This document shows, piece by piece, positions 4,573-52,909 of a stretch of 64,000 nt of DNA; the stretch's first letter is position 1, and every line of letters starts with the position of its first letter. The translations under genes were made by a program, and so were the position numbers. Source of the DNA: Pseudobdellovibrionaceae bacterium (GTDB lineage: Bacteria; Bdellovibrionota; Bdellovibrionia; Bdellovibrionales; UBA1609); NCBI GenBank assembly GCA_947444305.1, contig CANEZP010000002.1:186001-250000 (forward strand), in the 5' to 3' direction. A model generated the notes under the pieces. The model saw only the letters and a program-made list of their open reading frames with translations, was not told the origin of the DNA and did no database searches.

Positions 4573-5322
4573 ATGGCGCTAGTGCTGGAAATAAAATCGC
4601 TTTCTAAAACCTACGGGGACTACCGCGCCCTAGGCCCGATCGACCTGAATCTCGAGACGGGCCAAACGTCGATCCTGCTGGGTTCAAGTGGTTCGGGTAA
4701 AAGCACGCTGCTGCGGGCGATCCTGGGCCTGATCAAAACCGACGAAGGCTCCATTCTATTTAACGGCGCGGCGGTGGCCGAGTGGTCGCCGCCCACGCGC
4801 GCGATGCGCATCGGTTACGTTCCGCAAGGCGGCAGTTTGTTTCCGCACATGACTTCGGCCGCGAATGCTTCGGTCGTGGCGCGCGCGATCGGTTGGGATA
4901 AGGCAAAGATCAAAAAACGCTTCGACGAAATCCTGCCGGTATTCTCGTTCGATGAGAGTTTGCTGCGCCGGCGCCCGCACCAATTGAGCGGCGGGCAAAG
5001 GCAAAGGGTTGCTTTGATGCGGGCGGCTTTCACCGATCCCGAATTGTTGTTGCTTGATGAACCGCTCGGCGCGCTTGATCCGCTCGTACGCGCCAGCCTG
5101 CAAGAAGAGTTAAAAGAAATTTTCTCGCGCCTTCGTAAAACCGTGATTTTTGTCACGCACGATATCGGCGAAGCCGCGTACCTCGGGGATCAAATCGTTT
5201 TAATGCACGAGGGCCGCGTCGTGCAGCACGGCTCGTTCAACGATCTACGCGAGCGACCGGCTTGCGAATTCGTCACGCGCTTTATGAACGCGCAAAGATT
5301 ATTCGCGCGGGAGGCGAAGTGA
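4573..5322 (+). CDS. Osmoprotectant (glycine betaine/choline-type) ABC transporter ATPase
   Basis: The 249-residue ATPase has Walker A (GSSGSGKST), the Q-loop (VPQGGSLFPHMT), the signature (LSGGQRQRVALMRAAF), Walker B (LLLLDEPLGALD) and the switch histidine (VTHDIGEAAYLGD). The Q-loop neighbourhood and the layout with the next gene fit the quaternary-amine uptake family (OpuC/OsmV). The usual C-terminal CBS pair is absent. Its stop overlaps the GTG start of the fused binding protein/permease, so the two form one importer. Confidence 0.87.
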   Translation: MALVLEIKSLSKTYGDYRALGPIDLNLETGQTSILLGSSGSGKSTLLRAILGLIKTDEGSILFNGAAVAEWSPPTRAMRIGYVPQGGSLFPHMTSAANASVVARAIGWDKAKIKKRFDEILPVFSFDESLLRRRPHQLSGGQRQRVALMRAAFTDPELLLLDEPLGALDPLVRASLQEELKEIFSRLRKTVIFVTHDIGEAAYLGDQIVLMHEGRVVQHGSFNDLRERPACEFVTRFMNAQRLFAREAK

Positions 5323-51312: not shown

Positions 51313-51366
51313 GTCGCGGGTCCGGTCGCAGTCGCGGGTCCGGTCGCAGTCGCGGGTCCGGTCGCG
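51313..51366. repeat. 18-nt tandem repeat, three copies
   Basis: The unit GTCGCGGGTCCGGTCGCA occurs at 51313-51330 and 51331-51348, and again at 51349-51366 with the last A changed to G. It lies 32 nt after the PDZ gene stop. A unit of 18 could be read through, but no gene spans it. Likely a small minisatellite. Confidence 0.85.
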
Positions 51367-51396: not shown

Positions 51397-51417
51397 TTTC
51401 TGTGCGCACAGAATTCC
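51397..51417. repeat. Palindrome copy 1 (TTCTGTGCGCACAGAA)
   Basis: A perfect 16-nt palindrome occupies 51398-51413. With one flanking base on the left and four on the right it matches copy 3, in inverted orientation, over 21 nt. It could be an operator, a protein target or an RNA hairpin. Confidence 0.8.
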
Positions 51418-51533
51418 CGAACGGAATTGACGCGGGCACGCTGAAACCTTTTTAACCAAACACTCAATTCAAGGTGCACACGGGCCGGCCTTCCAATATG
51501 TAATCTTCCTCCGCATTTCAGCACGAACATCAT

Positions 51534-51553
51534 TATTCTGTGCGCACAGAATA
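51534..51553. repeat. Palindrome copy 2 (TATTCTGTGCGCACAGAATA)
   Basis: This perfect 20-nt palindrome shares the 16-nt core with copies 1 and 3. It lies 306 nt before the HNH start codon. Confidence 0.8.
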
Positions 51554-51859
51554 TCAATAAAATTGAGAAACGATCATTTGCACGCAGAGGATCAAAGGGT
51601 TTGAAGTCGATCATTCTACGTGTTCAATTCATCTAGAAATATTACTAATCATAAATAATATTTGACGAGTTTTTCGCAGGCGCACCGAGCGATTTGGATA
51701 ATAAAAGATCCTGAAATCAAATTTATGTTCAAAATTATTATCACGCGCATTCACTGCGCTATTAGACACTTTATCGAGATGTTACGAGGAAGTTATACCT
51801 TCGTCTATCGTGGCGCTTGGAAAAGCGATGGTAGATTGCTCCTAAATCCAGGAGGCCTT

Positions 51860-52909
51860 ATGAATGCCGAGCAGAAAAGAATTCATCAGAGAGCGTTGGT
51901 CGCGCGTGAAAAGTTCCATAATTTTGAATTGGATTTCATTTCCATCTTGCAAGACGTTGAACGGACTCGGGTGCATCGGGCTTTGAAAAAGCGATCGGTG
52001 CATGTCTATGCCGTTGATGTTTTAGGATTCAATAATGCCGTGGCTTATATGTTCATCGCGGTTGCCCGAAAAGCTCTCGTGGTGCCGGATATGTTGCAAG
52101 CGGGTTTGTCCGTATTTGTTTTGAGCCGTCTCGTGTCGACGATCCATCCCGAGAACGCGGCCGAGCTGATCCACATCGCGCAAACGAAAACGAGCCGCGA
52201 ACTGGATGTAGAGCTTGGCCGGCGCAATCCAAAATACAAACCGGAGCGCACCAAAATCCATTCGGAGGAGTGCGTTGAGCTCACGCTTAAGGTTTCTCCT
52301 GGATTTTTAAAGAAGTTGGAAAGAGTGCAGTCGTTGAGGGCGCAAAAGGATGCCACGGCCGGTGTCGGTTTCACGTTGGAAGCCGGTCTTGATGAGTACC
52401 TGCGCCGGCATGATCCGGTTCAGAAAGCGGAGCGGGCGCAAGCGAAACAGGGTAAACCGAAACAAACAGAACCGAAAGCGACAGAAACGAAAGGAACAGA
52501 AACGAAGCGGACACGCGACGAGAGAAATAGACAGAATGAACAGATGAACGAGACACCTGCGGCGGCAGCCCTAGTGAACAATATAATACTTGGAAGGGAC
52601 CTCACGGGAAAATCTAATCAGGAATTCTGTGCGCACAGAAAAATGGGGCGGATTCCGTTAAGCTCCGTTCAACGGCATGCGGTATTCACGAGAGACCAAG
52701 GAAAATGCACGCACTTAGAAGCCTCGGGCGAACTTTGCGGTTCGGACCGGTGGGTGCATATTCATCACGTGGTGCAAGTCGCGCGGGGCGGGACGAATGA
52801 ACCAGAAAATTTACGAACATTGTGTTCGTTTCATCACGACATGATTCATCAGGGGCAAATCGGTGGACGCGATGTCTATCTGGGCCAAAACGTTTGGACG
52901 AAACTGTGA
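51860..52909 (+). CDS. HNH endonuclease family protein
   Basis: The 349-residue protein has a helical N-terminal region (about 1-185: VDVLGFNNAVAYMFIAVARK; NAAELIHIAQTKTSRELDVE; SPGFLKKLERVQSLRAQK) of a kind found in many copies in Bdellovibrionota-type genomes. A Lys/Glu/Thr/Arg-rich low-complexity linker (about 187-232) precedes a C-terminal HNH domain. That domain has cysteines in CTHLEASGELCG, the catalytic VHIHHVVQVARGGTNEPENL and the last histidines in CSFHHDMIH. ATG 51860 has GGAGG 4 nt upstream. A third copy of the palindrome lies inside the gene and encodes EFCAHR. Function is unknown; homing, defence or competence roles are all possible. Confidence 0.82.
   Translation: MNAEQKRIHQRALVAREKFHNFELDFISILQDVERTRVHRALKKRSVHVYAVDVLGFNNAVAYMFIAVARKALVVPDMLQAGLSVFVLSRLVSTIHPENAAELIHIAQTKTSRELDVELGRRNPKYKPERTKIHSEECVELTLKVSPGFLKKLERVQSLRAQKDATAGVGFTLEAGLDEYLRRHDPVQKAERAQAKQGKPKQTEPKATETKGTETKRTRDERNRQNEQMNETPAAAALVNNIILGRDLTGKSNQEFCAHRKMGRIPLSSVQRHAVFTRDQGKCTHLEASGELCGSDRWVHIHHVVQVARGGTNEPENLRTLCSFHHDMIHQGQIGGRDVYLGQNVWTKL
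52621..52641. repeat. Palindrome copy 3, inside the HNH gene
   Basis: The core TTCTGTGCGCACAGAA lies at 52625-52640, in frame as FCAHR with flanking residues, at the junction between the charged linker and the HNH domain. Together with its flanks it is the inverted counterpart of copy 1, 1.2 kb away. Confidence 0.8.

Follow-up and report, generated by a model that had tools for sequence, protein, structure and literature searches.

Why should one perfect 16-nt palindrome stand three times around and inside a gene for an HNH endonuclease? The locus belongs to a stretch of 64,000 nucleotides ("the window") from the genome of a Pseudobdellovibrionaceae bacterium, related to predatory bacteria (G000; 4.17 Mb, 29 contigs; C-numbers designate its contigs and paralogues). 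The initial annotation of the window had offered three readings of this palindrome, TTCTGTGCGCACAGAA: a recognition site of the protein itself, an operator, or a dispersed repeat by which the gene family spreads.

All three perfect copies are found where they had been placed (Table 1), and a search of the window allowing up to three mismatches yields no further match. Shuffled windows contain a mean of 0.34 matches at this tolerance and none attained three. Copy 2 sits inside a 20-nt perfect palindrome, TATTCTGTGCGCACAGAATA (51534-51553). Copy 3 is indeed in frame within the HNH open reading frame, where it is read in codon phase 0 and encodes F-C-A-H-R. Copies 1 and 3 do form, with their flanks, an inverted pair 1197 nt apart; its length is 24 nt (96% complementary) and not the 21 nt first given. 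Alignment with the paralogues, of which about 11 further genes exist in this genome, makes ATG 51860 (MNAEQK...) the likely start of the gene. Between a PDZ-like gene and copy 1, the window also contains GTCGCGGGTCCGGTCGCA three times in tandem (51313-51366).

Table 1. Palindrome copies, HNH gene and domains of its product in the window.
Feature	Position	Strand	Remarks
Palindrome copy 1, TTCTGTGCGCACAGAA	51398..51413	.	462 bp upstream of ATG 51860
Palindrome copy 2, TTCTGTGCGCACAGAA	51536..51551	.	324 bp upstream of ATG
Palindrome copy 3, TTCTGTGCGCACAGAA	52625..52640	.	in frame, 17 bp before HNH domain
HNH gene	51860..52909	+	349 aa from ATG (stop included)
Predicted ParB/Noc/KorB-like helix-turn-helix (HTH)	51911..52234	+	residues 18-125; AlphaFold2 pLDDT >95 over most
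Predicted ribbon-helix-helix-like (RHH-like) domain	52271..52414	+	residues ~138-185; AlphaFold2 of domain alone
HNH nuclease domain	52658..52861	+	residues ~267-334; Pfam HNH PF01844 E 4.5e-6, above cut-off

The palindrome and the HNH paralogues of one genome

TTCTGTGCGCACAGAA occurs 14 times exactly in this genome, against about 0.001 copies expected for a 16-mer, an excess far beyond chance as had been claimed for the window; its reversed control pattern gives no match there. No copy exists in 140 further Bdellovibrionales genomes. Eleven of the 14 belong to five HNH paralogues, termed clade A: three to the window gene and two each to the genes at C3:4.3 kb, C5:274 kb, C7:33 kb and C17:23 kb, with one copy ~250 bp 5' of the ATG and the other in the gene at +696 to +765. 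The count across genome and relatives proposed by the initial annotation thus firmly bears out a link with HNH paralogues, and these 11 copies exclude a wide scatter unconnected with them. The remaining three copies are flanked by unrelated genes (C3:18635, C3:18732, C14:34730). A broader pattern, YTCTGYNNNNRCAGAR, has 72 matches in this genome compared with seven for its reversed control; it is near background in nearly all relatives, the exception being the congener G001 (25 versus 4). Among the matches listed and the loci fetched, about half of the 72 sites are at HNH genes, and the other half are without an adjoining one. A DNA-uptake signal, for which thousands of copies would be expected, was rejected, as was a terminator. 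Two HNH paralogues of this genome (C15:28353-29294 and C3:4323-5306) have an in-frame stop in the matched region and are possibly decaying.

Six paralogues (C3, C17, C5, C18, C7a, C13) have their upstream site at -248 to -252, directly followed by a conserved TTTGACG element. This fixed position would suit palindromes that are operators and nothing else, serving autoregulation, perhaps through looping over ~1 kb, with other DNA as the target of the HNH domain and with rearrangements that arise by ordinary repeat recombination. The domains predicted for the protein are DNA-binding domains, and paralogous regulators would also diverge in their sites, avoiding cross-talk. A purely regulatory role, the chief competitor of the reading preferred below, is nevertheless rather unlikely, as it leaves unexplained the 47 copies in genome G037, the sites without HNH genes, the tandem arrays and the exact palindrome-to-palindrome deletion at locus L085 (see below); moreover, 16 bp is a short repeat length for recombination by RecA. 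Autoregulation may hold in addition to cutting of the site.

The in-gene copy encodes a motif, [FL]-C-x-x-R, that is conserved in the paralogues of this genome, as might be expected if protein-coding constraint maintained the palindrome. In the five clade A genes, however, the same codon is used by all five in just 22 of 161 invariant degenerate amino-acid columns (13.7%), and FCAHR is the sole window with all codons identical among 21 invariant five-residue windows. Because codon choice is fixed at the palindrome-encoded FCAHR, the in-gene copy is seen to be under constraint as DNA. In-gene copies of other lineages stand in other codon phases. Chance and coding constraint alone are rejected and retain a negligible probability, given the identical non-coding copies, the fixed codons and counts far above chance.

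Palindromes of sister paralogues and other genomes

Sister paralogues of the window gene carry different palindromes. In C1, C13, C16 and C18, CTCTGCGCGCGCAGAR stands upstream and before the HNH domain, with a third site at +472, in codons reading L-R-A-Q-K. The C15 paralogue carries CTCTGTTTAAACAGAG, and C7b and C2b have variants such as CTCTGTTTGCACAGAG and CTCTGTACAAACAGAG. Own palindromes are found in its clades A, B and C and at homologues in G001, G007, G009, G014, G021, G028 and G037. The supposed tie to the HNH family thereby extends beyond clade A, other paralogues and genomes holding their own palindrome at the same two positions. Palindromes of HNH homologues are ACCTGTCGYRCGACAGGT in G037, ACAGTTCTTAAGAACTGT in G014, CAATTCTTAAGAATTG in G007, GTGTCCCGGGACAC in G009, TCTGCCCGGGCAGA in G021, AATTGTGCCCGGGCACAATT in G010 and AACTGTCCCCGGGGACAGTT in G028. 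The G037 palindrome CCTGTCGYRCGACAGG has 47 copies in that genome and none in seven others, and the G014 palindrome CAGTTCTTAAGAACTG has eight, six of them beside HNH genes, with none in the other genomes tested. That the palindrome changes with the protein suggests a self-linked system of protein and DNA site, so far undescribed; a literature search of incomplete coverage found no description of HNH genes with cognate palindromes.

Repeated pairs of near-identical, near-palindromic 14-mers between -600 and +500 of the gene are present at 28 of 65 loci (which are non-independent, coming from nine genomes), compared with 0.9% of dinucleotide shuffles. In a further set, five of 40 loci pass this test, and at several others one palindrome of 20-24 nt immediately precedes the HNH domain. 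Across 105 genes, 50 perfect palindromes of at least 16 nt are found, with ~3.1 expected: 19 are upstream, 16 at most 130 bp before the HNH domain, and 8 just past the stop codon. Of the 141 Bdellovibrionales genomes, 82 encode the HNH family. The trait itself is widespread but patchy, being strong in about nine genomes and weak or absent in others. A profile scan of genome contigs for the family gives matches in Bdellovibrionales and Oligoflexia MAGs only, and tblastn against phages and plasmids returns no relatives of the HNH protein. In a more distant, HN-type subclade, a 1080-bp gene of G001 (L091) harbors a 26-nt perfect palindrome, CTTTACTTGAGGCGCCTCAAGTAAAG, at +763, ~93 bp before the HNH domain.

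Six-base arms around a four-base centre could fold in mRNA, and some C7b sites have imperfect centres; the palindromes might then be hairpins for translation control, termination or processing. Such a role at the RNA level is very improbable, since the centres are mostly perfectly self-complementary (GCGC, TTAA, CCGG), some palindromes reach 24-28 nt without a loop, and many sites are intergenic or in tandem arrays.

Predicted architecture of the HNH protein

The AlphaFold2 model of the window protein, a confident one (pLDDT 84), places a disordered linker between the RHH-like and HNH domains. Its predicted HTH aligns with those of ParB, Noc, Spo0J and KorB (VIA-align; Z 5.4-7.9, ~95-97 aa, rmsd 2.6-2.7). 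With ParB proteins of the same genomes, hhalign aligns the whole HTH (E 3e-4, probability 39%), and one homologue matches Pfam HTH_ParB (PF17762) at E 4.9e-4. The N-terminal CTP-binding ParB/Srx domain is absent, with just 17 residues before the HTH and no Pfam match; a true ParB is also encoded in every tested genome except G001. The RHH-like model resembles CopG (Z 4.1, 1.4 Å, 42 aa) and NikR (Z 4.2, 1.8 Å, 44 aa). Both DNA-binding assignments are of moderate strength, and a mostly helical domain may reach such scores (Z below 8 for the HTH, ~4 for the RHH-like domain) by chance. The nearest solved fold to the HNH domain is that of the GVE2 phage HNH (Z 8.5), and C283, C293, H303, N317, C322 and H325 are nearly invariant. 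DUF222 is matched weakly by three of 43 homologues (best E 5.1e-4) and not by the window protein. PADLOC gives weak matches to the HNH domain only and no defence system.

ParB binds its palindromic parS site with two-fold symmetry, and four residues switch its specificity (PMC7383237); the sites of Noc are 16 bp long (PMC8429893). A survey has recorded fusions of the ParB CTPase domain with HNH (PMC12704722). Domains of the ParB type act as dimers in binding 16-bp palindromes. Both predicted DNA-binding domains of the window protein fit the palindromes well. Given the predicted combination of a ParB-like HTH with an RHH-like domain, the protein's own recognition site is the best of the readings, and most likely the correct one. 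Distance between sites tracks that between HTHs at 0.57 and that between HNH domains at 0.52, almost equally, and therefore ordinary descent explains much of the agreement between protein and site. Single HTH contact residues and site letters show a partial correlation of just 0.15 after removal of the HNH distance.

Junctions, proposed working and known systems

At L085 in G037, the HNH region has been exactly lost by the join of the in-gene and downstream palindromes, and the junction palindrome is a hybrid with one flank from each parent site. In the same genome, 24.6% of homology ends fall at palindromes, compared with 5.8% (maximum 13.3%) in 1000 shifts. The figure for G000 is 14% against 1.1%; part of this enrichment is trivial, since alignments of diverged DNA stop at the edges of a conserved 16-mer. 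It is set aside here, the G037 figure and L085 being counted as junction evidence. None of 12 homology ends in G014 is at a palindrome. The HNH-less locus L036 of G000 matches sequence upstream of HNH genes over ~115 bp, a similarity that ends at the far edge of the palindrome. At the sequence level, these data indicate that breaks and joins occur at palindromes, and the HNH domain may be the maker of those breaks. Among the readings offered at the outset, the association with HNH genes stands, and the palindromes act as junctions of rearrangement as well. In the nearest relative, G002, an empty-site test found pfk with different neighbours and no readable insertion boundary. Furthermore, repeats of ~350 bp bounded by palindromes, partly inverted, occur on both sides of HNH genes at L080-L087 of G037, and many HNH genes and palindromes of this genome are at contig ends, as expected of unresolved repeats.

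The palindromes could instead be passengers, short repeats that are mobile or unstable, that owe their spread to a different enzyme or to breakage at cruciforms, and that are simply tolerated near fast-evolving HNH genes. Solo copies and arrays between unrelated genes would agree with this, as would a second dispersed repeat, the hairpin block described below, at many of these loci. An in-frame copy before the HNH domain is nonetheless present in independent lineages, in differing sequences and codon phases, the site type matches the protein clade, and the palindromes are private to each genome, all of which makes a passenger origin improbable.

The preferred reading, to which we give as a whole a slightly better than even chance, is that the HNH protein has the palindrome as its cognate site, which it binds and nicks or cuts, repair then spreading the sites. 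The protein would be a dimer whose ParB/Noc-like HTH reads both half-sites and whose RHH-like domain pairs the subunits, a flexible linker bearing the HNH nuclease. Binding and dimerisation are what the structural models suggest. Copies would be kept at two fixed positions, one ~250 bp ahead of the gene and the other immediately 5' of the HNH coding region or directly past the stop codon, where the protein would bind its own gene and probably control its own expression. It would also bind dispersed copies, and nick or cut at or near the site. Repair of the breaks from other copies would join palindrome to palindrome; such joins would delete, duplicate and re-sort the intervening pieces and bring the palindrome to new places, and each paralogue clade would thereby evolve a private pair of protein and site. 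The positions of the palindromes, their privacy, their change with the protein clade, the constraint on the DNA and the junctions can be read in the genomes themselves. Cutting, and cutting as the driver of the rearrangements, is what we infer beyond this, and binding of the own site is better supported. Unless it nicks or is kept in check, a nuclease that cut intact palindromes within its own gene would destroy itself; the patchiness of the trait and the broader-pattern sites that have no HNH gene nearby also weigh against this reading. More tentatively, the locus could belong to a new class of selfish or self-diversifying element in which a ParB-like reader joined to a site-specific HNH nuclease keeps, cuts and spreads a private palindrome, protein and site co-diversifying within one genome while gene pieces, even the HNH domain, are re-sorted at palindromes.

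To our knowledge, multi-copy HNH genes of the 13E12/DUF222 type occur in many bacteria and have no known function. For the present family there are now candidate sites on DNA, a domain predicted to read them and natural pairs of protein and site by the dozen, by which binding, cutting and the evolution of specificity become directly testable. A set of nucleases that each had a private 16-bp address would also help in studies of how specificity is encoded.

Several known systems share part of this organization. ParB, Noc and KorB with parS or NBS likewise combine the predicted HTH fold, several 16-bp two-fold symmetric sites and a specificity varying between relatives. In contrast to them, the HNH protein has no CTP-binding domain, its HTH is joined to an RHH-like domain and an HNH nuclease, and its sites lie at the gene that encodes it and vary among the paralogues of a single genome. 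Closest in logic, though built on another enzyme, is RAYT with its REP/REPIN sequences, also genome-private palindromes tied to a gene family with copies at its own locus. Here, however, the enzyme is an HNH and not an HUH/Y1 transposase (searches of Pfam, NCBIfam and PHROGs find no HUH/Y1 tyrosine transposase and give HNH only), one copy is inside the coding sequence, and copy number is low (8-72). If the reading holds, a second, unrelated enzyme type would be paired with genome-private palindromes. HNH homing endonucleases are similar in being HNH nucleases with possible recognition of a long site and spread through repair, whereas the present gene does not interrupt its site, and intact palindromes are beside and inside it. 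The REP13E12/DUF222-HNH repeats of mycobacteria likewise contain HNH genes in multiple copies, whose N-terminal domain has no known role; unlike these, the window protein has no DUF222 match, and cognate palindromes are not described for REP13E12 in the papers found. In M. tuberculosis, the REP13E12 loci, which are grouped with HNH/DUF222 genes (PMC10589994), form a leading gene-conversion hotspot with no defined function (PMC13061034).

Other repeats accompany the palindromes. A conserved, non-coding hairpin block, CTTGCGGCCGCGGACGGCCGCAAGAAGCCACTCTCAAGGACGGA...GATGAGGCC, spans -370 to -250 of nine HNH paralogues of G000 and ends at the palindrome (e.g. L043 ~4840-4985), though not at the window copy; it shows compensatory changes in C3 and C15. 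Its core is a dispersed repeat with 14 exact and 35 relaxed matches in this genome, one block being at C1:245414 without an HNH gene. An Rfam search of eight loci, hairpin block included, gives no match. Between a CBS-domain gene and the elongation factor G gene (C2:33468-33783; L119 3468-3783), a 30-bp unit containing TCTGTATGAACAGA is repeated about ten times in tandem. Seven CTCTGTACAAACAGAG variants with hybrid half-sites are clustered within ~245 bp between def- and fmt-like genes (C2:319643-319888; L039 5644-5888). Upstream of C7b (L045 3961-4160), 26-bp tandem units contain CTCTGTTTGCACAG, and their half-sites mix different clades.
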